From contig QZKU01000006.1 of NCBI GenBank assembly GCA_003598085.1, positions 1 to 11,032 on the forward strand: DNA of 11,032 nucleotides. The letters are read 5' to 3'. Every line of letters starts with the position of its first letter. The stretch's first letter is position 1. Shown in pieces: positions 118 through 11,032 of this stretch. A model generated the notes under the pieces. The model had not been told where the DNA came from and did not search any database. It worked only from the letters and a program-made list of their open reading frames with translations. This stretch comes from Candidatus Abyssobacteria bacterium SURF_5. Lineage in GTDB: Bacteria; Abyssobacteria; SURF-5. The position numbers were made by a program, and so were the translations under genes.

Positions 118-990
118 ATGCGACATTTTATCGTTCGAACTGTCAGTGCCCCTGTTAATCCGCAGGTGCTTATTAGCGGATTCTGGGAAAACCCACAATG
201 GAGCCGAATGCTCATGTATTCGGTTCTTATACATGTATGCCTGGCGCTTACTTTTGTCTTTGTCAAGGTACTGAATCTGCCTTTCAGAAAGCCTTTTCAG
301 CCGGTGGTTTATACGGTTGATCTTGTTGAATTCGAGAAAAAAAAGCCTCAGAAAAAGGCGAAAGCTGCGCAGGTCGCCGCGAAGAAAGAAGAGCCTAAGC
401 CGAAACCAAAACCCGAACCGAAGCCGGAGCCAAAGCCCGAACCGAAACCCGAGCCGAAGCCGGTAGTTGAAAAAAAAGCGGCGCCGCCACCGCCACAAAA
501 AAAAATTGAAGCACCGAAGGTTGTAAAAGCGCCTGAGCCGAAACAGGAACCGCCTGAAGTGAAGGCGCCGATCGAGCCGGCGAAGGAAGAGGCTCCTCCG
601 CCACCTCCGCAAGCCGAGCCGACGGAGGTGGCCAAAGGGGAGCCCGAGCCGGTGGCCGAGAGCACGGTCGATCTTGATGCGGAATACATCACCCCCGAGC
701 TGAAGTGGTACATTGAAATCATCCGGCGCAAAGTCTGGCAGAACTGGATCGAACCGTTGCATGCGCTCAGGTTGGGGACAAGTGCGAGAGTGGTCATACG
801 TTTTGAAATTGGTCGTGACGGAAGTTTGGTTTCGGAGCCGGTGGTTTTCGAATCGTCGAATATCTTTGAGTTGGATCAATCCGGCTATCGCGCAGTGCTG
901 CGATCGGCCCCGTTTCCGCCTCTTCCGGAAGGATATACCGGAACGAGTTTGGGCGTACGTTTCGGTTTCGCATATGGAGAAAGTGCATGA
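118..990 (+). CDS. tolA: TolA/TonB-like energy transducer
   Basis: This 290-aa inner-membrane protein probably links the proton-motive-force motor (TolQR/ExbBD, presumably upstream of the window) to TolB and Pal. It has a cytoplasmic N-terminus of about 30 residues and one membrane helix at about residues 31-50. That helix carries the S-x3-H pair (S35, H39) typical of TonB/TolA motor contacts. A long periplasmic Lys/Pro/Glu/Ala-rich spacer follows (about 70-185), including a perfect Pro-Lys/Pro-Glu repeat at 93-115. The C-terminal domain (about 195-290) has the 'W..W..P' and 'V.IRFEIGRDGSL' features of TonB/TolA C-domains. The start at 118 lacks a clear Shine-Dalgarno sequence; an AGGA lies too far upstream. 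The stop overlaps the tolB start (ATGA). The tolB-pal-cpoB context favours TolA over a siderophore-type TonB, although the Pro-rich spacer is TonB-like. Confidence 0.88.
   Translation: MRHFIVRTVSAPVNPQVLISGFWENPQWSRMLMYSVLIHVCLALTFVFVKVLNLPFRKPFQPVVYTVDLVEFEKKKPQKKAKAAQVAAKKEEPKPKPKPEPKPEPKPEPKPEPKPVVEKKAAPPPPQKKIEAPKVVKAPEPKQEPPEVKAPIEPAKEEAPPPPPQAEPTEVAKGEPEPVAESTVDLDAEYITPELKWYIEIIRRKVWQNWIEPLHALRLGTSARVVIRFEIGRDGSLVSEPVVFESSNIFELDQSGYRAVLRSAPFPPLPEGYTGTSLGVRFGFAYGESA
394..462 (+). repeat. Pro-Lys/Pro-Glu codon repeat in the tolA spacer
   Basis: A 69-nt tract of tandem CC(G/A/C)-A/GA(A/G) codons encodes 23 alternating Pro-Lys/Pro-Glu residues (93-115). Synonymous third-position changes break the DNA repeat while the peptide stays regular, so it is kept at the protein level. 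Such tracts form rigid, extended rods that let TonB/TolA span the periplasm. Confidence 0.85.
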
Positions 991-2285
991 AGTATCTTTT
1001 CGTTAAAATTCTCTTTGTTTTTCTTCTCGTTAGTTGGCCGGTCGCACTTCGCGGGGAAAGCGATATCATCATTGATATTATTGAGCCGGGGACTGCGAAA
1101 ATTAAAATCGGGATTCCTCCTATCGTTCTCGATCCCGGCACTCGTTTGCAAACGACCGCAAACGCGGCCGCCGAATTCGCGCAAGTTCTACGCGACGACC
1201 TGGATTTCACCGGGATTTTCGAAGTCTATCCTTCACCTCCGATAAATGTGAGAGTAAGCCAGGGCGAATTCGTTCCGCTCAAGTCATGGGTTCCGCTCGA
1301 CGTACAGGCGGCCTTTCAAGGGCGCTGCAAAGAAACCGGCGGCGCCGTCGCTTTCGAATGTGAACTTTATGATGTCGAATCTGAAAGTCGCATCGTCGGC
1401 AAGTCTTATAAAGGGACCACGCGAGACGTGCGCACGATCGCTCATGCGTTTTCCGATGAAATCGTTTACCGCTACACCGGCAAACCCGGAATCGCCCATA
1501 CCTCAATAGCTTACACCAGAGAGAAGGGCGGCTCTAAAGAAATCCATATCATGAATTACGACGGACATGGCTCCTATCAGCTTACCTACGACAAGTCTAT
1601 CGCGCTTTCCCCCAGTTGGTCGCCCGATGGCACAAAAATTGTTTTCACTTCTTACCGCGATCATAACCCGGACGTTTACTTGATAGACTTGAAAGCCAGA
1701 AGCTCCAAGCGAATCTCGGCGTATGTGGGGCTCAATACAACTCCAGTGTTTTCGCCTGATGGCAAAACCGTGGCCCTTACTCTGAGCAAGGATGGAAACC
1801 CAGAACTGTACCTGCTCGCGCTCAAGGACGGCTCGCTTACGAGACTCACGAGGAATTCCGCCGCGGATACTTCCCCTTCCTGGTCCCCGAACGGCAGGGA
1901 AATAGCCTTTGTTTCAGACCGATCCGGCTCGCCGCAGGTATATATCGTCGACCGCGAAGGAGTTTACGTCCGCAGGCTGACCTATTCCGGATCGTATAAT
2001 ACTTCGCCCGATTGGTCGCCACAGGGGGATAGAATTGCCTACGTGTCGATGGTCAATGGCAAACCTGACATATTTACCATCGGTCCAACCGGAGCCGACG
2101 CCCGCAGAATAACCACAAACGGCGGAAACGAAGACCCGGTCTGGTCGCCCGATGGCAAGTACATTGCGTTTTCCGGGAAACGAAATGGCGTAAGAGATAT
2201 CTATTTGATGAGAGCTGATGGTTCAGGTATTAAACAGGTTACCTTCGGAGGAGGTGATCATATGTCACCTGCGTGGTCTTCCTAA
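987..2285 (+). CDS. tolB: Tol-Pal system beta-propeller protein TolB
   Basis: This 432-aa periplasmic protein binds Pal and the TolA C-domain and helps keep the outer membrane tethered during cell division. A hydrophobic signal peptide spans residues 1 to about 23. The TolB N-terminal alpha/beta domain follows (about 25-145). The C-terminal beta-propeller then shows repeated PD40 blades, visible as 'PSWSPDG', 'PVFSPDG', 'PSWSPNG', 'PDWSPQG' and 'PVWSPDG', each followed by (I/V)(V/A)F or (I/V)AY strands. Length and blade number fit the family. ATG 987 overlaps the tolA stop by 4 nt and is preceded by GGAGA at 976-980, so translational coupling is likely. A run matching the full anti-Shine-Dalgarno complement lies near the 3' end (2249-2259) but is explained by the Gly-Gly-Asp-His coding there. 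Confidence 0.97.
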   Translation: MKYLFVKILFVFLLVSWPVALRGESDIIIDIIEPGTAKIKIGIPPIVLDPGTRLQTTANAAAEFAQVLRDDLDFTGIFEVYPSPPINVRVSQGEFVPLKSWVPLDVQAAFQGRCKETGGAVAFECELYDVESESRIVGKSYKGTTRDVRTIAHAFSDEIVYRYTGKPGIAHTSIAYTREKGGSKEIHIMNYDGHGSYQLTYDKSIALSPSWSPDGTKIVFTSYRDHNPDVYLIDLKARSSKRISAYVGLNTTPVFSPDGKTVALTLSKDGNPELYLLALKDGSLTRLTRNSAADTSPSWSPNGREIAFVSDRSGSPQVYIVDREGVYVRRLTYSGSYNTSPDWSPQGDRIAYVSMVNGKPDIFTIGPTGADARRITTNGGNEDPVWSPDGKYIAFSGKRNGVRDIYLMRADGSGIKQVTFGGGDHMSPAWSS

Positions 2286-2360
2286 AGAACCACACGGGGA
2301 AGATCTGTAGTCGTTCGCTTGAGCAATTGATTTTTTTAAGGAAAATGTGATTTGAGAGAG

Positions 2361-2367
2361 AAGGAGG
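2361..2367 (+). promoter_or_regulatory. Strong Shine-Dalgarno sequence of pal
   Basis: AAGGAGG lies 6 nt before ATG 2374. It fixes the pal start and predicts high translation, as expected for an abundant lipoprotein. Confidence 0.85.
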
Positions 2368-2373
2368 CGGGAG

Positions 2374-2961
2374 ATGCGTCGCATTACAATTGGCTTGATG
2401 CTCCTGATGTTTACTGTGACTTCAATCGGGATCGGGTGCGCCCGCAAAAGCGGAGCGGTCACTGCGAAATTCCCGGAGGAATCAAAAAGCGCCGCGGCAA
2501 CGACTTCGACGGCTGACAAGGAGGCCGAAGCCAGGCTTGGCGAAGGCGCAGCCACTGGATTCGAAGAAGGCGATCTCGCTCTGTTGCAGAGCAACAGACC
2601 TGGAGACCTTGTCTTTACCGACGCCGGCGAATCTTTGAAAAGCGTATACTTTGACTACGACAGTTCCGCCCTTTCACCCGAAGCGAAAGCGACGTTGGAA
2701 CAAGTCGCTCAGTGGCTCAAGCAGAATCCCACGAAAAACATTCGGATCGAGGGAAATTGCGACGAGCGCGGAACTACCGAGTACAACCTTGCCCTTGGCG
2801 AGCGCAGATCTCTCGCCGCACGACGCTACCTGATCAGCCTGGGCATCAGCTCCGACCGCATTTTCACGATCAGTTACGGCGAGGAAAAACCGGCCGTCGA
2901 TGGGCATGATGAGTCGGCTTGGAAGTTCAACAGGCGTGATGATTTTGCGATATCGCTGTAG
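2374..2961 (+). CDS. pal: Peptidoglycan-associated lipoprotein Pal (OmpA-like)
   Basis: This 195-aa outer-membrane lipoprotein binds peptidoglycan and TolB. The signal peptide ends at Cys22; the preceding G-I-G is a loose lipobox because -3 is Gly rather than Leu/Val/Ile. A flexible Ala/Glu/Thr-rich linker covers about 25-85. The OmpA/MotB-type domain covers about 88-190, starting with 'VYFDYDSSALSPEA'. It contains the diaminopimelate-binding region 'GNCDERGTTEYN' (Asp130) and 'LGERRSLAARRYL' with the conserved Arg. The C-terminal 'NRRDD' replaces the usual 'NRR-V-x-F'. It follows tolB after 88 nt and precedes cpoB, the usual tol order. Confidence 0.96.
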   Translation: MRRITIGLMLLMFTVTSIGIGCARKSGAVTAKFPEESKSAAATTSTADKEAEARLGEGAATGFEEGDLALLQSNRPGDLVFTDAGESLKSVYFDYDSSALSPEAKATLEQVAQWLKQNPTKNIRIEGNCDERGTTEYNLALGERRSLAARRYLISLGISSDRIFTISYGEEKPAVDGHDESAWKFNRRDDFAISL

Positions 2962-2986
2962 ACGTTGATGTCCCCAACGCGATATC
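2949..2986 (+). other. Imperfect hairpin between pal and cpoB
   Basis: GATATCG (2949-2955) can pair with CGATATC (2980-2986). A second stem, CGTTG (2963-2967) with CAACG (2975-2979), nests inside it. The structure spans the pal stop codon and lacks a T-run, so it is not an intrinsic terminator. It could protect or process the mRNA between the highly expressed pal and the less abundant cpoB, but no function is shown by sequence alone. Confidence 0.35.
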
Positions 2987-3006
2987 ACCAAGCGAAAGGG
3001 GGATAG

Positions 3007-4056
3007 ATGGAACATTTATCCAAGGCCTGGCTGCTGGGGGTGTGTGTGCTCTCCTATTTTTTCATGGGGCAGGCAGGATGTCAGACGCTCACTTCGCAAG
3101 AGGATATTACTTACATAAGGTCCGACCTGGTTCGCATGAGGCGCGACATCGAGGAAATCAAGCAGGATCTTAATGCGCCGGACGCTTCAAGTAATCAGGA
3201 TATCCTCCGCAACCAGGCGGCGCAACGGGAAGCTCTGATAGAATTGCATGAGGGCCAGCAGCGTCTGGAGAGCAAAACGGAGGAATCCTCCTACCAATTG
3301 GAGTCGCTCAAGCAGGAGCTTACAAACCTCAAGTTGAACCTGGTCAACCAGATGGAAGCCTTGCGGGCAATGAGCAAGCCGGTTCAACCGCCTCCTGCTG
3401 CTGGACAGCCGTATAGCAGCCAGCAACCGCCCGCGCAGTCGCCACTCTCTTCGACTCCTGCATCCCCTCAACAGCCGGGCCCTGTGCAAGCGGCTCCTCA
3501 ACGGCAGATTCCTTCGCCGCCTCCTGTGCCTGCGATTCCGCCTGTGCCCTCGCCTTCGGTGGCTCCTTCAATGCCGCCGGTGCCTCCAGTCCCGTCGGCG
3601 CCGTCTTCTCCCCAGGCGCAGGCTATACCCTCGCAAGACGCGGGCGATGTTCGGGTCGCCCCGCCACCGGTTGATGTTATTGATTACACGAAGCTGTATG
3701 ATACGGCCTACGAGGATTACGTGCGGCAGAAATATTCCCTTGCGCGCAGCGAGTTCGAAGAATATTTGCGGCGATTTCCGGAAACTGATCTTGCCGATAA
3801 CGCTCAGTACTGGATCGGCGAGTGCTACTTCGCCGAGGGGAAGTATGAAGAGGCCGCAAACTCCTTCAAACTGGTCGTCGAAAGGTATCCAACCGGCAAC
3901 AAGGTTCCTCGTGCCTTGTTGAAGGCGGGCTACGCTTTCCTGCAACTAGGGCGCGACTCTGATGCGAAAGAAATGTTTCAGCAGGTGATTGATGCCTACC
4001 CGCTTTCCAGCGAAGCCGATCAGGCAAAGATAAAACTCAGGGCACTCCAGGAGTAG
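3007..4056 (+). CDS. cpoB: Tol-Pal associated coiled-coil/TPR protein CpoB (YbgF)
   Basis: This 349-aa protein coordinates Tol-driven envelope constriction with peptidoglycan synthesis in known systems. The N-terminal hydrophobic segment (about 7-24) ends at Cys25 in 'MGQAGC', a possible non-canonical lipobox. A coiled coil rich in Glu/Gln/Leu follows (about 30-120). A very long Pro/Ser/Ala/Gln linker spans about 124-222. Three C-terminal TPR-like repeats (about 228-345) show 'A.EDY...KY..A...FEEYL..FP', 'A.YWIGECYFAEGKYEEA' and 'GYAFLQLG...A...FQQVIDAYP'. AGGGGG at 2997-3002 supports ATG 3007. The protein is longer than E. coli CpoB (about 260 aa) because of the linker. It is last in the tol cluster; a separate tRNA promoter starts 22 nt after its stop. 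Confidence 0.93.
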   Translation: MEHLSKAWLLGVCVLSYFFMGQAGCQTLTSQEDITYIRSDLVRMRRDIEEIKQDLNAPDASSNQDILRNQAAQREALIELHEGQQRLESKTEESSYQLESLKQELTNLKLNLVNQMEALRAMSKPVQPPPAAGQPYSSQQPPAQSPLSSTPASPQQPGPVQAAPQRQIPSPPPVPAIPPVPSPSVAPSMPPVPPVPSAPSSPQAQAIPSQDAGDVRVAPPPVDVIDYTKLYDTAYEDYVRQKYSLARSEFEEYLRRFPETDLADNAQYWIGECYFAEGKYEEAANSFKLVVERYPTGNKVPRALLKAGYAFLQLGRDSDAKEMFQQVIDAYPLSSEADQAKIKLRALQE

Positions 4057-4078
4057 AGCCTAGGTATGGCGCCTTGCG

Positions 4079-4107
4079 TTGACAAAGGCAATGCGCTGCA
4101 ATATACT
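4079..4107 (+). promoter_or_regulatory. Consensus sigma70 promoter of tRNA-Val
   Basis: TTGACA (4079-4084), a 17-nt spacer and TATACT (4102-4107) match the housekeeping consensus at 11 of 12 positions. The start point should fall at about 4113-4115, a few bases before the mature tRNA at 4120. The GC-rich palindrome CCCTAGGG (4110-4117) lies in the discriminator/start region, as in stringently controlled stable-RNA promoters. Confidence 0.88.
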
Positions 4108-4119
4108 ATCCCTAGGGCG

Positions 4120-4193
4120 GGGCGCTTAGCTCAGTTGGTTGGAGCGCTGCGTTCACATCGCAGAGGTCACTGGTTCGAGTCCAGTAGCGCCCA
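4120..4193 (+). tRNA. tRNA-Val (anticodon CAC)
   Basis: The cloverleaf is complete. The acceptor is GGGCGCT (4120-4126) with AGCGCCC (4186-4192), and A4193 is the discriminator. The D stem is GCTC/GAGC (4129-4132/4142-4145). The anticodon stem is CTGCG/CGCAG (4147-4151/4159-4163) around loop TTCACAT, with CAC at 4154-4156 reading GUG (Val). The T arm is ACTGG-TTCGAGT-CCAGT (4169-4185). The 3' CCA is not encoded and must be added after transcription. It is flanked by its own promoter and terminator, so it is a single-gene unit. Confidence 0.97.
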
Positions 4194-4212
4194 CAGAATC
4201 ATGCTTATAAGG

Positions 4213-4509: not shown

Positions 4510-4941
4510 ATGATCAAATATATGAACGCTGGGATTTCGGGGAGGTTTGCCGCGGGCTTGTTTTGGGTGGCTCTCCTCTCGATCTTCGGCTGTCAAACCC
4601 TGAGAACATCGGAGCCTGCTTTCACCGTCCGGGTGCGTCATATTTCCGATTTTCAGGCTCACGAGGATCACGTAGTCCATCTGCATGAAGGCTTTTTCAT
4701 TGCCGATACCGATTTATATGTGAAACTGCAGCGTTTTGTCCCGGATTTTGAATTGAATATGAACTCTAAAGAGGTCGTTTCGCGTTCCAACGAACCTCTG
4801 AACCCGGCTCTCCAACTGGCTGTTTCCTTCCAAGAGGACCTGTTGTACGAGTCATGGATTCTCTACCAGAACCTCATTCCACACGCAATCCATGAGCCGG
4901 GATACTACTTCCAATTCATTGCGTATGAAGACTTAAAATAG
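4510..4941 (+). CDS. Probable lipoprotein, ResB-like periplasmic domain
   Basis: This is a 143-aa exported protein. A hydrophobic segment (about 13-27) ends at Cys28 in 'LSIFGC', a lipobox-like site with an unusual Phe at -2. The rest (about 38-143) has no haem motif. The stretch 'LQRFVPDFEL' followed by 'VVSRSNEPLNPAL' resembles a segment found in ResB/Ccs1-type cytochrome c biogenesis proteins and related small redox lipoproteins; I recall this from family patterns and have not tested it. It is the first gene after the sigma54 promoter and ends 8 nt before the earliest start of the 26-haem cytochrome. A role in cytochrome maturation or attachment is therefore plausible. GAGG (4505-4508) is too close to ATG 4510 and rather far from ATG 4522, so the start is uncertain. 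Confidence 0.78.
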   Translation: MIKYMNAGISGRFAAGLFWVALLSIFGCQTLRTSEPAFTVRVRHISDFQAHEDHVVHLHEGFFIADTDLYVKLQRFVPDFELNMNSKEVVSRSNEPLNPALQLAVSFQEDLLYESWILYQNLIPHAIHEPGYYFQFIAYEDLK

Positions 4942-4949
4942 CATGTACT

Positions 4950-6938
4950 GTGGGAAAAGGTAATTTGAAATTGCAGATGGCGGCTCATTTGTTCCGATTC
5001 CGGTTGCTTGCTGTCTTTATTCTGTTCTCGATCATATCGGTTGCATTTGTGCATTGCGCGGAGACGCAACCCTCGCGCAGACGCATGGGTAAGGCATGTC
5101 TTGACTGCCATGAAGATATGCGTCCACGCCTTTCTGATAAAGTCGCACACCAGCCGTTCAGGGATCAGGATTGCGAGCAATGCCATAAGCGACATGGACT
5201 GCTGAAAACCCTCCTCTTGAAATCCCCTGATGCGTCGCTCTGTTTCCCGTGTCACGAAGAGCAAAAAGCGATTTTCGATCAGCCCGTGCAGCATTTCCAG
5301 AACGAGCAAGGGGTATGCTGGAAATGTCACGACCCGCATTCGAGCTCGAATGAATCGCTTTTGAAAGAAAGCGGCGAGGGTCTGTGCGCAACTTGCCATC
5401 CGGACAAGGAGGAATTCCAACGGGCGGTCGTCCATTCCCCGGTGAAGGAAGAAAAATGCCTCACCTGCCACGTCGCACATTCGGGCTCCACTGACCAATT
5501 GTTGAGAAAGCCGGAGGTCGAGGTGTGCGCCGGCTGCCATTCGGCCCAGCAGCCTCCTTTCGCCCAAAAACATCAAAATTACGACGTGTCACAGAGCAAA
5601 TGCAGTTCCTGCCACAATCCGCATTCTTCGACGGGCGATGGCCTTCTTCAGCTTTCATTCCATCCGCCGGCGGGGGAGGATTGCCAGGCATGTCATACTC
5701 CGCCCCAGGAAGGAACCAAGCCCAAGCTGCTCCAGAGCGGCGGCAAGCTTTGCTTTACCTGCCACTCGGATGTCCAGGACGAACTAAAGCTCACCAATGT
5801 GCATCCGCCTTTCGGCGGAGACGAATGCGGCGAGTGTCATCTCCCGCACGGGTCGCGCTTTCCGGCGTTGCTGGCAAGCCGGCAGGAACAGGTATGCAAT
5901 CGCTGTCATGATGATGAGATTATTTTCCCGAAATCGAAACAGGTTTCAAGTCATGACCCGCTCGAGAAGGGGGATTGCTCGGCCTGCCATGATGCCCATG
6001 CAAGTGAACAGCCGTATCTGGCGAAGCAGCCCGGCAAGCAACTCTGCCTGCAATGTCACCACGATCATGAGGCTTTCAAGAGCAAGAATCAGCATGAGCC
6101 TTTCAAAGAAGGCGAATGCCTCAAATGTCATGGTCCTCATACCTCCACGTTTGCCGCATTACTGCGTGACCGAACATACAATGTTTGCACCGAATGCCAT
6201 TCTGCTGTCAAGGAACAGGGGCAACACCAAAATATTCACGATCCTTTCGGCGCAGGACGATGCGAAAAATGTCACGACGCTCACGGGAGTGATCAACAGA
6301 ATTTCCTGATCTCGGGCGAACCGGGTTTGTGCTACGGCTGCCATTCGGATTTGGAAGAGAAGCTGAAGGTTGGCGAGAAGCACGCCCCCGCCGGATCGGG
6401 AGAGTGTTCAACATGTCATCCCGCCCACTCAAGCAGGCAAGAGAAGCTTCTGCACGTTTCATCACAGGAGCTGTGCTATCAGTGTCACGAAGATTTCAGT
6501 GAGAAAGGCGAGGCCGATCATGTGCATGAACCGGTGCGGCAACGTAACTGCCTCGGCTGCCATGAAGCGCATGTGGCAAGCGGCGAATCCCTCTTGAAGA
6601 AAGACGGCTCCTCCCTTTGCTATGAATGTCATACCAGCCAAAAGGAACTCTTCGTAAAAGATGTCATACATGAACCGGTGGGCGGGGGGGACTGCCTGAC
6701 CTGCCACGAGCCGCATATCAGCAAATTCACATCGCTCGTCGTCGATAAGACAAGCGTGCTCTGCGCCTCATGTCACGATGTGAACGTTGATGAGTTTCTA
6801 AAATCCCACAGGGGATATGACGTAGCCAAAGCGGATTGCAGCGGCTGCCATGACCCGCATGCCTCCGCGAAGAATGGGTTGTTGCCGGCTTTCATTCATG
6901 AACCATACGGATCATTCCGTTGCGAGCTATGTCATTGA
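4950..6938 (+). CDS. Large multihaem cytochrome c, 26 CXXCH motifs
   Basis: This protein of up to 662 aa has a signal peptide at about residues 15-36. It then has 26 CXXCH haem-c sites from Cys50 to the very last residues (658-662), about one per 25 aa. Most form the paired arrangement of the doubled-CXXCH family: 'H.P...C..CH.(P/A)H.S...LL....LC..CH'. Histidines such as the PH/AH and H-x-P positions are obvious candidates for distal ligands (bis-His haems). Residues 8-9 and 25-26 of the haem series belong to a distinct 'H.GYDV/NYDV...C..CH.PH.S' module. It should be a periplasmic, outer-membrane-associated or secreted electron conductor. Oddly, the chain stops on the final CXXCH, where the sister modules carry a further haem. 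The start is uncertain (GTG 4950, TTG 4965/4971, ATG 4977). Confidence 0.95.
   Translation: MGKGNLKLQMAAHLFRFRLLAVFILFSIISVAFVHCAETQPSRRRMGKACLDCHEDMRPRLSDKVAHQPFRDQDCEQCHKRHGLLKTLLLKSPDASLCFPCHEEQKAIFDQPVQHFQNEQGVCWKCHDPHSSSNESLLKESGEGLCATCHPDKEEFQRAVVHSPVKEEKCLTCHVAHSGSTDQLLRKPEVEVCAGCHSAQQPPFAQKHQNYDVSQSKCSSCHNPHSSTGDGLLQLSFHPPAGEDCQACHTPPQEGTKPKLLQSGGKLCFTCHSDVQDELKLTNVHPPFGGDECGECHLPHGSRFPALLASRQEQVCNRCHDDEIIFPKSKQVSSHDPLEKGDCSACHDAHASEQPYLAKQPGKQLCLQCHHDHEAFKSKNQHEPFKEGECLKCHGPHTSTFAALLRDRTYNVCTECHSAVKEQGQHQNIHDPFGAGRCEKCHDAHGSDQQNFLISGEPGLCYGCHSDLEEKLKVGEKHAPAGSGECSTCHPAHSSRQEKLLHVSSQELCYQCHEDFSEKGEADHVHEPVRQRNCLGCHEAHVASGESLLKKDGSSLCYECHTSQKELFVKDVIHEPVGGGDCLTCHEPHISKFTSLVVDKTSVLCASCHDVNVDEFLKSHRGYDVAKADCSGCHDPHASAKNGLLPAFIHEPYGSFRCELCH
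4955..4960 (+). promoter_or_regulatory. Shine-Dalgarno that questions the 26-haem gene start
   Basis: AAAAGG lies inside the longest reading frame (GTG 4950). No comparable site precedes that GTG. The spacing favours TTG 4965 (4 nt) or TTG 4971 (10 nt), or less well ATG 4977 (16 nt). All give a sound signal peptide. Confidence 0.45.
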
Positions 6939-6972
6939 GGAAGACCTGAGCGAAAGCCGCTGAGATTGCTTG

Positions 6973-8232
6973 ATGAAAAAGAAACACATACAAATTCCTC
7001 TTCTGTTGGCGGCCCTTCTTCTTATCTGCCCGCTTCTGGTGGAACAATCATACGGCGCGGGAAAAGAGATCGTCAGGAAAAAGGATTATCAGAAGCTATG
7101 CTACACCTGTCATAAGGATCTGAAAGACAGTTGGCAAGGAAAGCAGGTGCACGCGCCGGTTGGGCTTGGAAATTGCGTCGGCTGCCATAATCCCCATGCC
7201 TCAAATAATTCGAAACTTGTCGCCGCTCCAAGAAGCAGATATTGCTTCAATTGCCATGGAGAGGACCCATCGGAATTTGAATCCGAATATTCGCACCTGC
7301 CGGTCAAAGAGGGGCAATGCCTCAGTTGTCACCAGCCTCATGCGTCTGCAAATCCCTCCCTGTTGAGCGTCGGTAAGAAGGACCTCTGTTATACATGTCA
7401 TCAAGATGAGAAAAAGGAGTTCGCCCAAGAGCATGTACATGCACCGGTCGAAAAGGCGGAGTGCCTGCAATGCCATTCTGCACACTCTTCGCCCCGACAC
7501 AATCTGCTGCGCAAATCCAGCTCACAGCTGTGCGTACAATGCCACGATGGCACCAATTCCAGCTTCAATAATGCTCATGCCGGCTACCCGGTGGGTAAGG
7601 CGGGATGCGCCGATTGTCACGACCCGCATGCATCCGCCGAAAAGGCGCTTACCAGAAAAGTCGCCCATGTGCCTATGGTTAAGAAGCTCTGTTCATACTG
7701 CCACAGGGAGCCGGACAGCTCAAAGCCGTTTTCTTTGGTCAAGTCCGAAGACAGCCTATGCCGCTCGTGCCATTCTGATATGTGGCAGGAGTTTGCCAAA
7801 CCCATCGCCCATCCTCCCGTCGCAGAAGGAAAATGCTCTGTCTGTCATTCCCCTCACGCCTCGGATCAGCGGTTCCTCATGAAAGAGAACAAGCAACTGC
7901 TGTGCGCCGGCTGTCATCAGGGCTTCCTTGAGAAGTTACAAAGAAAAGTCGTTCACGAGCCGGTCGTCAAAGGCCAGTGCGAACTCTGCCATGAGCCTCA
8001 CGCTGCAAGCGTGGCGTCAATGCTGAAGACCGACGTCATCGAATTGTGCAAGCGATGCCACGGCGCGCAACACAGCATCAGCCATCCCTTTGGAAAAGAC
8101 GTAATCGATCCCCGCGACGGCTCGGTGCTCGATTGCGTGAGCTGCCACGATCCTCATTCTTCTAACGAGGAGTACCTGGTGCATTATCCCGCTGCGCGGG
8201 AACTATGCATCCAATGCCATAAGGCGCTCTAG
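6973..8232 (+). CDS. Multihaem cytochrome c, 16 CXXCH motifs
   Basis: This 419-aa exported protein starts at ATG 6973, just after an in-frame TTG at 6970. Its signal peptide ends near 'SYGA' (about residue 28). Sixteen CXXCH motifs run from residue 43 to three residues before the end, in the same doubled-CXXCH pattern as the preceding gene ('HAPV...C..CH.PHAS...LL....LC..CH'). The seventh to tenth motifs form the 'HAGYPV...CADCHDPHAS' module also seen in the 26-haem protein, so the two are paralogues. The gap of 34 nt puts it in the same operon. It is likely a second electron conduit in the periplasm or at the cell surface. Its Shine-Dalgarno is weak (GAG near 6962), so coupling to the upstream gene is possible. 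Confidence 0.95.
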   Translation: MKKKHIQIPLLLAALLLICPLLVEQSYGAGKEIVRKKDYQKLCYTCHKDLKDSWQGKQVHAPVGLGNCVGCHNPHASNNSKLVAAPRSRYCFNCHGEDPSEFESEYSHLPVKEGQCLSCHQPHASANPSLLSVGKKDLCYTCHQDEKKEFAQEHVHAPVEKAECLQCHSAHSSPRHNLLRKSSSQLCVQCHDGTNSSFNNAHAGYPVGKAGCADCHDPHASAEKALTRKVAHVPMVKKLCSYCHREPDSSKPFSLVKSEDSLCRSCHSDMWQEFAKPIAHPPVAEGKCSVCHSPHASDQRFLMKENKQLLCAGCHQGFLEKLQRKVVHEPVVKGQCELCHEPHAASVASMLKTDVIELCKRCHGAQHSISHPFGKDVIDPRDGSVLDCVSCHDPHSSNEEYLVHYPAARELCIQCHKAL

Positions 8233-8432
8233 AAAACCCACATTAAATTTCGCCTTCCGCACAACATCTCACTGCCACCCGCCTTTCAACGCTCTTCTCC
8301 TCATCCAAAGTTGTTCCGGCCTTTTAGTCGAATCATATTTGGGTGAAACAACCCACTAGATGGGTCATTTCGCGCTCTCCAGACCTCCGAAAGAAGCCGC
8401 GAAAGCTTTTAGTCAAGTAAATTCTGCCTTTC

Positions 8433-8454
8433 TTCCTTCTGCTTGGAGAAGGAA
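8433..8454. promoter_or_regulatory. Inverted repeat, candidate enhancer-binding-protein site
   Basis: TTCCTTCT (8433-8440) and AGAAGGAA (8447-8454) are perfect 8-nt arms around GCTTGG. It lies about 190 nt upstream of the predicted sigma54 start at 8639, a usual distance for an RpoN activator site. No T-run follows on either strand, so it is not a terminator. The upstream region of the first sigma54 promoter has a related GGAAG-TT-CTTCC dyad (4369-4380), which is only loosely similar. Confidence 0.4.
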
Positions 8455-8610
8455 AATCAAACCAGTCTTTGGCGGGTTCTGCGAATACGATTTCGTAATA
8501 GATGGTAAGTTACTACAGATATTGCGTTTATGTCCTTCAATAAAGAGCGGAGGAATTGACCTATGGGAAATAAATCGGAAAAATTTTCCTCTCCATCACG
8601 ATTTAGTAAG

Positions 8611-8631
8611 GCTGGCATGCAGATTGCCTTT
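8611..8631 (+). promoter_or_regulatory. Sigma54 (RpoN) -24/-12 promoter of the NHL-OmcS-like operon
   Basis: The site reads GCTGGCATG-N4-TTGCCTTT. GG at 8614-8615 and GC at 8626-8627 have the required 10-nt separation. Predicted start is about 8639, leaving a leader of about 59 nt before ATG 8698. It is identical to the 4459-4479 site at 18 of 21 positions, differing only in the N4 spacer. Confidence 0.82.
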
Positions 8632-8697
8632 TAAGGCGACGCAGTCAATGAGGGCAAGCACTCGACCAGTTGCAGTAGATCACCGAAAGTGCGGCAG

Positions 8698-9702
8698 ATG
8701 AAGATCAAACGCGAACGGCAGAATGTGAACAAGAAATCTGCAGGCGTTTGCCTTATTCAGAGACTTCATAGTTTTTCCTTCATTATTTTCGCAGTTACCC
8801 TTTCCCTCTTCGTTGCCTCTCCAACGTATGCGGCATTAAAAATAGAGGCCGTCCATTTATACGACTTGCAGGGCCCAACCAAAGATTCCCGATTCCGGAA
8901 CCATAACGCTGTGCTCTGCGATCCAGAACGCAATGAGATGTATGTCGTCGACACGGGAAACGGCTGCATCCGAATCTTTGGCAAGGAAGGCCTTCAGATT
9001 TTTCAGTTCGAGAATGACGATTTGTCTCTCCCACTGAGCGTCGCTCTGAATGATCTCGGAGATATCTATGTTCTGCAAAGCGGCTCCGGCGGGCGCAGCA
9101 TCAAGGTTTTTGATTTTCGAGGGAAGTACCTGTCTCAGTTGAAGCTCCAGGGTTTGCCCGACGGCGATTCCGTCATGCCGGAAGCCATCGCGATCGATTC
9201 GCGCAATACCGTTTATGTTTCCGACCCCAAACACGGCCGCCTTCTCGCTTTCGACAGCGAAGGCCGTTTGAAATTCACCATAACGCCTGAGATGTCAGAA
9301 AAAGACCGTGAGGAGGTTATCTTTGGCAATCTGATGATTGACAAAGAAGACAGGGTTTATCTGCCCGTCAGCACACTTGGGACAATTTTAGTGTTCGATT
9401 CCCAAGGCCAGCTTGTCACGAATTTCGGAATCAAAGGAGGCGGCCCCGGCAAACTGGCATTTCCGGTCGACGTGGTCGCGGACAACCGCGGGCGCATGCT
9501 GGTGCTCGACAAGCAGAGGCACTGTATATCGGTTTTCGATAGTCAGGGCAATTACCAGACCGAATTCGGCGGCATGGGCATATCTCCGGGTTGGTTCTTC
9601 TTTCCGAGCGGACTCGAGATAGACAGATATGGACGTCTCTATGTTTCCCAAAGATACGGTGACAAAGTGCAAGTTCTTAAGGTGAAGGAGGTAGTGGAAT
9701 GA
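8698..9702 (+). CDS. Secreted NHL-repeat beta-propeller protein
   Basis: This protein of about 334 aa has a hydrophobic signal segment ending near 'SPTYA' (about residues 25-46). It is followed by about six NHL-type blades. Each shows an aspartate/asparagine-rich turn, a 'V-Y-V' type strand and a following '(I)xVFD..G' strand: 'EMYVVDTGNGCIRIFGKEG', 'DIYVLQSG..RSIKVFDFRG', 'TVYVSDPKHGRLLAFDSEG', 'RVYLPVSTLGTILVFDSQG', 'RMLVLDKQRHCISVFDSQG' and 'RLYVSQRYGDKVQVLKV'. NHL propellers bind proteins or other polymers; no catalytic residues are evident and there are no haem sites. It is the first gene after the second sigma54 promoter and lies 73 nt before the OmcS-like gene, so it may serve that cytochrome in export, assembly or surface attachment. 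Start choice: ATG 8698, with GAAAG upstream; GTG 8689 and GTG 8725 are alternatives. Confidence 0.92.
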   Translation: MKIKRERQNVNKKSAGVCLIQRLHSFSFIIFAVTLSLFVASPTYAALKIEAVHLYDLQGPTKDSRFRNHNAVLCDPERNEMYVVDTGNGCIRIFGKEGLQIFQFENDDLSLPLSVALNDLGDIYVLQSGSGGRSIKVFDFRGKYLSQLKLQGLPDGDSVMPEAIAIDSRNTVYVSDPKHGRLLAFDSEGRLKFTITPEMSEKDREEVIFGNLMIDKEDRVYLPVSTLGTILVFDSQGQLVTNFGIKGGGPGKLAFPVDVVADNRGRMLVLDKQRHCISVFDSQGNYQTEFGGMGISPGWFFFPSGLEIDRYGRLYVSQRYGDKVQVLKVKEVVE

Positions 9703-9775: not shown

Positions 9776-10831
9776 ATGAAAAAGGCATTCGTATTGATGG
9801 TAGCTACATTCCTTATCGCGGGAGTCTACGCGCCTGCGGCTATGGCGTTCCATGACGACGGCGTCGCTTACTGCGGCGGCTGCCACACCATGCACAACAG
9901 CCAGCATGGTCAATTGGTTGATCCGAATTCCGCAACAGGCAACCCATTCTTGTTGAAAGATGCCACGCCGAGCGATACCTGCTTGCTCTGCCATAAGAAC
10001 TACGGGCAGTTAAGCATTGATGGGCAGACCCTCGGCCCCGGCGGTGACTACTATTGGGTGACGCAGGACGTCACGTGGACCGCCCACAGCCGCAACTACA
10101 TTGTAGAAGGCCGCGAACATGGTCATAACCTGGATGCTCCGGGCAATGGCCTGACGGCGGACCCCGTGCTTACCACCTCGCCTGGTGGAACCTACAATGC
10201 AACGTACATGGGTTGTAACTCCTGTCATGACCCGCATGGGGAAGACAGTAACGACCTGTTGCTCTATGGTGTCGGCGCGACGGCCGCAAACTACGTTGGT
10301 GGATTCAATTTCACCAACGCTGCTCCGGCTATCATAGATAACGGACGCAGCACCACTCTCACCGGGAGCGCAGCCGAAAAACTGAGTCAGCACACGGCTT
10401 ATCTCAGCGGGATGAGCGACTGGTGCGCGAACTGTCATGCCGGCATGCACTCCGGAATGACCAGCAACCTGGTTCACCCGGTAGACGTCGGCGTCGGCAC
10501 GACGTTATCCAACAACTACAATGCATACGTCACGACGGGCAATATGACCGGCGCGCAGGCGACGGCTTACCTGCCGCTGGTGCCGTTTGAAGATGCTGCG
10601 AACACTACCACCAGCACCACCGGTACCACGTCCGCAAGTAGAGTGATGTGTCTGACCTGCCATCGTGCTCATGCATCGCCGTATCCGGATGCAGGCCGTT
10701 GGGATTTCGCTCAGACCGAGTTGACAGAAAGCCATCCGGCCGGTGAGCCTTACCTGGCTCAGTATTCCGGTGCTCCGCTGGATATGACCGTCCAGAGGAG
10801 TCTGTGCAACAAGTGTCACGCCAAGGACTGA
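9776..10831 (+). CDS. OmcS-like hexahaem cytochrome, predicted nanowire subunit
   Basis: This 351-aa protein has a signal peptide cleaved after 'AMA' (residue 24), leaving a mature chain that begins FHDDG. Six CXXCH sites start at Cys33, 69, 147, 217, 292 and 344. By memory of Geobacter sulfurreducens OmcS, the match runs along the whole chain. The shared blocks include '[14 protein letters not shown]', 'GGD..W', 'E..HGHN', 'LTT.PGGTY', 'CHDPHG', 'MS.WCANCH', 'LTHP/LVHP', 'TG.QA.AYL.L.PFE', 'CL.CHRAHAS' and the C-terminal 'LCNKCHAKD'. OmcS polymerises into micrometre-long haem-chain filaments for electron transfer to minerals and partner cells. Mature His16, which in OmcS ligates a haem of the neighbouring subunit, is present (His40 of the precursor). 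The chain is about 80 aa shorter than OmcS, mainly between haems 3 and 4 and haems 5 and 6. The Shine-Dalgarno is very strong. Confidence 0.95.
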
Positions 10832-10897: not shown

Positions 10898-10936
10898 GGA
10901 GAGGGCGCTTCCAAGGCGAGGCGCCCTTCTCCATTT
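10898..10936 (+). terminator. Terminator-like hairpin after the OmcS-like gene
   Basis: AGGGCGC (10902-10908) pairs with GCGCCCT (10921-10927). A bulged extension, GGAG (10898-10901) with CTCC (10929-10932), lengthens the stem. The downstream tract is only moderately T-rich (TTCTCCATTTG) and is interrupted at 10938 by the start of a group II intron. It probably was, and may still be, the intrinsic terminator of the operon. Confidence 0.7.
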
Positions 10937-10937
10937 G

Positions 10938-11032
10938 GTGTGCCCGGCAGGGCGCACTCACTTGAAGGTGCAAGTCCTTTGCAGGCCCGACAGGGGGAAC
11001 TGCTAGCCGGACGGCAAGGGTGTCCATCGCGA
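10938..11032 (+). mobile_element. Group II intron (IIC-like), 5' end, truncated by window
   Basis: The sequence begins with the group II 5' splice-site motif GTGTGCCCGGCA, followed by a hairpin region around CTTGAAGGTGCAAGTCCTT. It then shows the highly typical domain I string CAAGGGTGTCC (11008-11018). The start and the GGGTGTCC string match the well-known Oceanobacillus iheyensis IIC ribozyme as I recall it. Insertion directly after a terminator hairpin is the hallmark target of IIC introns. The remaining domains and any intron-encoded reverse transcriptase/maturase lie beyond the window. Confidence 0.88.

Follow-up and report, generated by a model that had tools for sequence, protein, structure and literature searches.

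A member of the OmcS family of hexahaem cytochromes in Candidatus Abyssobacteria bacterium SURF_5 and its gene neighbourhood

The gene at positions 9776-10831 (+ strand) of contig QZKU01000006.1 from Candidatus Abyssobacteria bacterium SURF_5 encodes a relative of the Geobacter sulfurreducens cytochrome OmcS, with which it shares family and fold and which Geobacter assembles into extracellular electrical filaments. The contig stretch analysed here, 11,032 nucleotides in all, is referred to as the window. By analogy with OmcS, the window protein is likely to polymerise. The reading favoured here, with moderate confidence, is that of a secreted OmcS-family hexahaem cytochrome whose subunits would be joined through His16 and haem 5 into a filament along which the haems form an unbroken chain.

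Sequence and fold

The open reading frame starts with ATG behind a strong ribosome-binding site and specifies a precursor of 351 amino acids. Its six CXXCH motifs begin at residues 33, 69, 147, 217, 292 and 344, and provide haem 1 (CGGCH, residues 33-37, 9872-9886), haem 2 (CLLCH, 69-73, 9980-9994), haem 3 (CNSCH, 147-151, 10214-10228), haem 4 (CANCH, 217-221, 10424-10438), haem 5 (CLTCH, 292-296, 10649-10663), and haem 6 (CNKCH, 344-348, 10805-10819), all on the + strand. A 24-residue signal peptide is predicted at 9776-9847 (+), forming a helix at residues 2-17 in the structural model; its cleavage site, between AMA and FH, is placed by alignment with the mature 6ef8 chain. The mature protein comprises 327 residues from Phe25, with the same F-H N-terminus as OmcS. 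According to a genome search it is the sole OmcS-like protein of its genome, and an OmcS-like protein is present in all three genomes of the phylum in the searched collection.

A phmmer search of PDB sequences returned OmcS (6ef8/6nef) as the sole match up to E 1 (E 3e-49), with residues 25-156 and 161-351 aligned as two separate segments. The original prediction, that six haem sites and sequence blocks match OmcS along the chain, is borne out: the FHxxGVAxCxGCHTMH and CNKCHAKD blocks align, and the comparison with OmcS it had suggested gives 42% identity over 320 aligned positions, with precursor His40 opposite mature His16. Membership of the OmcE or OmcZ groups was not found, as the protein carries six haems rather than four or eight and the same search recovered neither up to E 1.

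An AlphaFold model built on a 10-sequence alignment (pLDDT 32) was discarded, and one built with 95 homologues reached a pLDDT of 80.9 and a pTM of 0.77. Residues 21-60 of this model, which include His26, haem 1 and His40, have a pLDDT near 50. OmcS was the sole significant match when the model was compared with the PDB by Foldseek (E 1.5e-18, TM 0.70/0.62), and VIA-align superposed the two with a Z of 24.8 and an rmsd of 3.1 Å over 291 residues, the N-terminal 60 residues of the model being of low confidence. Because the OmcS fold is reported to be unique among solved structures (PMC6584659), this match is specific. The protein thus combines whole-chain homology to OmcS, the twelve ligand positions described below and the OmcS fold. 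It resembles G. sulfurreducens OmcS (PDB 6ef8, 6nef; GSU2504) in fold, haem order and all twelve ligands, His16 included, as well as in its FH N-terminus and CNKCHAKD C-terminus, but it is 80 residues shorter, with every inter-haem gap reduced, and falls in a separate clade.

Haem ligands and the loss of His16

Conservation was assessed in a family of 101 sequences assembled from a genome-collection scan, whole-genome searches and the OmcS chain from the PDB alignment. In OmcS numbering, His13, 51, 110, 144, 147, 243, 332, 335 and 404 are invariant among the 101 homologues, and His257 is found in 100, His2 in 97 and His16 in 90. By this pattern twelve histidines act like axial ligands, of which six lie in the CXXCH motifs and six are distal (OmcS 2, 16, 110, 147, 257 and 335), the number that six bis-histidine haems require. 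The window protein has all twelve. Its predicted distal ligands, again on the + strand, are His26 (mature His2, 9851-9853), His40 (mature His16, 9893-9895), His117 (OmcS His110, 10124-10126), His154 (OmcS His147, 10235-10237), His234 (OmcS His257, 10475-10477), and His299 (OmcS His335, 10670-10672).

Other histidines were considered as ligands and rejected. Window His225 (OmcS His247) looks like a ligand in this protein, yet it is present in only 65 of the 101 sequences, and none of His44, 104, 115, 206, 225 and 320 is conserved family-wide as an extra or alternative ligand. His206 occurs in about two fifths of family members and His225 in two thirds, which leaves an in-chain alternative ligand for haem 5 conceivable.

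His16 of OmcS is the residue that we take to bridge to the haem of the neighbouring subunit, a role reportedly assigned to it by Wang and colleagues in Cell in 2019. It is the sole distal ligand that is cleanly lost: 11 of the 101 homologues lack it while keeping every other ligand, and the tree needs five or more changes to account for them. Such clean loss fits a bridging residue, because a ligand that serves another chain can disappear without breaking the fold. Since His16 can be lost, its retention as His40 in the window protein is informative rather than automatic.

According to the published OmcS structure, a chain supplies eleven of its twelve ligands itself, and the one on haem 505 is donated by a neighbouring molecule (PMC6584659). 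The alignment agrees with the earlier equation of precursor His40 with mature His16, and the accompanying proposal that His40 is an inter-subunit ligand, here for the haem 5 of a neighbouring subunit, fits both the loss pattern and the haem 505 ligand.

The proteins without His16 are those of loci L040, L041, L052 (428-1669), L053 (654-1835), L059, L085, L087, L088, L090, L092 and L097 (9938-11227), and these eleven are candidate non-polymerising members of the family. Loss of His16 was also compared with absence of the gene block described below. The block lies near 40 of 67 His16-bearing and three of 10 His16-less genes (p 0.10), and no signal was seen in tree-independent pairs.

A clade of short chains

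The mature window protein has 327 residues and OmcS 407. The deficit is spread over every gap, with 2 residues missing between haems 1 and 2, 15 between 2 and 3, 29 between 3 and 4, 14 between 4 and 5, and 20 between 5 and 6. The original estimate of a chain about 80 residues shorter therefore stands, but gaps 3-4 and 5-6, to which most of the shortening had been assigned, account for 61% of it and the rest lies elsewhere.

On the tree, the five sequences from the window's phylum group together (support 99). The smallest fork that joins them to other short chains takes in 19 further sequences, most of them from Krumholzibacteriota and other little-known phyla. This group of 24 rows (support 94) stands apart from the OmcS clade. 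Because the short chains group in this way, shortness is a trait of the clade and not a peculiarity of the window protein. Members of the short clade, from Krumholzibacteriota, Calditrichota, Zixiibacteriota, Acidobacteriota and MAGs, have mature lengths of 318-352 residues and the same ligand set as the window protein, His16 being missing from one of them, although their identity to it is at most about 51%.

Gene cluster

Four co-directional genes precede the OmcS-like gene. The nearest encodes an NHL beta-propeller protein of 337 amino acids (8689-9702, +, Pfam NHL), a type that most related loci also have beside their OmcS-like gene. Two doubled-CXXCH cytochromes lie further upstream, one with 16 haems and 420 amino acids (6970-8232, +) and one with 26 haems and 662 amino acids (4950-6938, +). 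They are preceded by a small lipoprotein-like frame of 143 amino acids with the lipobox FGC (4510-4941, +), which is syntenic in two relatives and gave no Pfam or NCBIfam match. The window begins with an ordinary tol-pal cluster, in which TolA/TonB-like, TolB, Pal (OmpA) and YbgF-like TPR genes are followed by tRNA-Val(CAC) (118-4194).

Behind the OmcS-like gene, an inverted repeat read by eye (AGGGCGC...GCGCCCT, 10902-10927, +) is a possible terminator. A terminator scan has no + strand entry at this position, the loop of the repeat being too long for the scan. The contig then breaks off inside a multicopy element of which the 5′ end is present (10938-11032, +) and which is interpreted as a group II intron. 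This terminal sequence, at least 94 bases long, recurs unchanged at three other contig ends in the genome. A second contig, C64, starts with a sequence (L105:1-102) that recurs near three other contig ends. It matched Intron_gpII, as a 3′ end, in an E-value search (31.8 bits, E 1.4e-4, a score under the curated cut-off), but no intron was called there by Rfam at the gathering threshold. Ends of the group II intron occur at about four places in the genome, every copy at a contig end. The assembly appears to have broken inside the cytochrome cluster, just behind the possible terminator hairpin, because of these multicopy intron copies.

Contig C64 opens with an outer-membrane barrel gene, two CsgG-like lipoprotein genes and a gene for a 20-haem cytochrome. 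Relatives G001 and G002, from the same family, share the row of the window, and there the OmcS-like gene is followed by a second NHL gene and by genes for a divergent hexahaem and a 9-haem cytochrome. Next come an 830-residue barrel bearing NHL repeats, a pair of CsgG/LpoB-like lipoproteins and a cytochrome with 20 haems. The simplest reading is that of one cluster split by the multicopy intron, and from this synteny we infer that the window contig (C6) and C64 are linked. The 9-haem and second hexahaem genes were sought in the window genome and not found. The second hexahaem protein, encoded in the clusters of both sister genomes (L016:8688-9698 and L018:6253-7404), is a highly divergent OmcS relative. 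The small lipoprotein pair (L105:3164-4566 and most related loci), related to CsgG, GNA1162 and LpoB, accompanies OmcS-like genes across phyla and could possibly supply export or anchoring parts.

The original prediction placed the gene in a non-Geobacter-like locus. Its neighbours turn out instead to be relatives, in another order, of the block beside omcS in Geobacter. In G. sulfurreducens, maturation and secretion of OmcS have been connected with the eight-gene block GSU2500-GSU2493 downstream of omcS (PMC12977616, citing Shen et al. 2025), in which GSU2495 has 26 haems and a mass of about 70 kDa (PMC12977616). The window has the 26-haem counterpart, the 16-haem component and the NHL gene beside the OmcS-like gene (4950-9702), and contig C64 of the same genome, joined to it by presumed linkage, has the barrel and both CsgG/GNA1162-like lipoproteins. 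Gene-by-gene matching to GSU numbers is inferred from order and size. Compared with GSU2500-GSU2493, the cluster is reordered, lies on two contigs separated at the intron, has an NHL insert in the barrel and includes an extra 20-haem cytochrome. A PPIC-type PPIase gene had no match in the window genome or in G002, and G001 gave weak, unlinked matches. As in the window, omcS genes of Geobacteraceae have an NHL gene upstream and a large-cytochrome block nearby, though the window gene differs in being single copy and in its gene order.

OmcS-like genes together with NHL, barrel, two CsgG-like lipoprotein, PPIase, 26-haem, 16-haem and NHL genes occur in named genomes of Geobacteraceae and Desulfuromonadales, and the same set is found in Nitrospirota, Acidobacteriota, Krumholzibacteriota and others. 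Of 77 OmcS-like genes flanked on one side by 6 kb or more of sequence, 43 have at least two of three classes (NHL, CsgG-like, large cytochrome) nearby. At two loci the 26-haem frames, of 1309 and 1064 residues (L054:16833-20762 and L084:17292-20486), are far longer than usual and possibly represent fusions with a PPIase or another domain. The oet (OetABI) cassette of syntrophic sulfate reducers likewise pairs an OmcS homologue with an outer-membrane barrel and several cytochromes, and filament formation has been proposed for its OmcS-like proteins (PMC10553843). That cassette belongs to different phyla, and the likeness drawn here is one of gene content.

An outer-membrane barrel with an inserted NHL propeller is encoded on C64 (L105:647-3130) and also at L016 and L018. 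When a profile of the barrels from the window's phylum was compared with that of the block barrels of Geobacter and others, both flanks matched (95.9%, E 6e-9). Between the flanks lies the NHL propeller in the window's phylum, and an F5/8 type C-like domain in three of six block barrels, possibly in the region corresponding to the NHL insert. A single barrel family would thus seem to have a different insert in each of the two groups, a lead drawn from alignments of low depth.

Proposed wire formation and its alternatives

The window protein is probably an ordinary, previously undescribed wire subunit. After removal of the signal peptide the chain would begin with Phe-His, and each of the six haems would be held by its CXXCH histidine and a distal histidine, five of them completed within the chain. 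The second ligand of haem 5, which in OmcS comes from the neighbouring subunit, would be His16 of the next molecule, so that subunits link head to tail. The co-encoded large cytochromes and the outer-membrane barrel would carry electrons out of the periplasm, and the filament would conduct them onward to an acceptor outside the cell.

Several points count against a wire. Proteins like OmcS are common, the tree places the window protein outside the OmcS clade, the PPIase is missing, and the modelled region holding His40 is of low confidence. G. sulfurreducens itself has three OmcS paralogues that are not known to form wires (PMC12977616). The window protein could be of this type, like OmcT, OmcJ or GSU2501, an extracellular electron carrier that works as a monomer or a short-lived oligomer and builds no long wires. 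This is unlikely, though it is the most serious rival. A single wire is proven, against a larger number of paralogues whose function is unknown (PMC12977616), some family members have dispensed with His16, and the subunit is much shorter than OmcS. Against this, His40 is retained, and the gene has as neighbours the NHL gene and the large cytochromes of the OmcS block. Being the sole OmcS-like gene of its genome, it is also not an extra copy beside a wire-former. A role at the outer surface as an adaptor or as the base of a filament, in which a few stacked subunits would join the barrel conduit to another acceptor protein as OetB or MtrC do, would suit a locus whose barrel and very large haem proteins could form a conduit, but it is highly improbable for a protein that has no lipobox, with a signal peptide ending in AMA, and that matches the polymer OmcS in fold and ligand set.

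The wire reading can be extended, speculatively and with considerable doubt, to the short clade as a whole. Its members, spread over several poorly known phyla, might build a slimmer version of the OmcS wire in which the protein sheath is thinner, with loss or retention of His16 acting as a polymerisation switch and the NHL-bearing barrel as the export gate for subunits.

Which OmcS-like proteins polymerise is described as unresolved in recent Geobacter work (PMC12977616), and the presence or absence of His16 provides a simple way to test which of them can. The short clade points to a minimal subunit, as the parts absent from it are probably dispensable for the haem chain. The OmcS wire family and its assembly genes are thereby extended to a phylum represented by three genomes in the searched collection.
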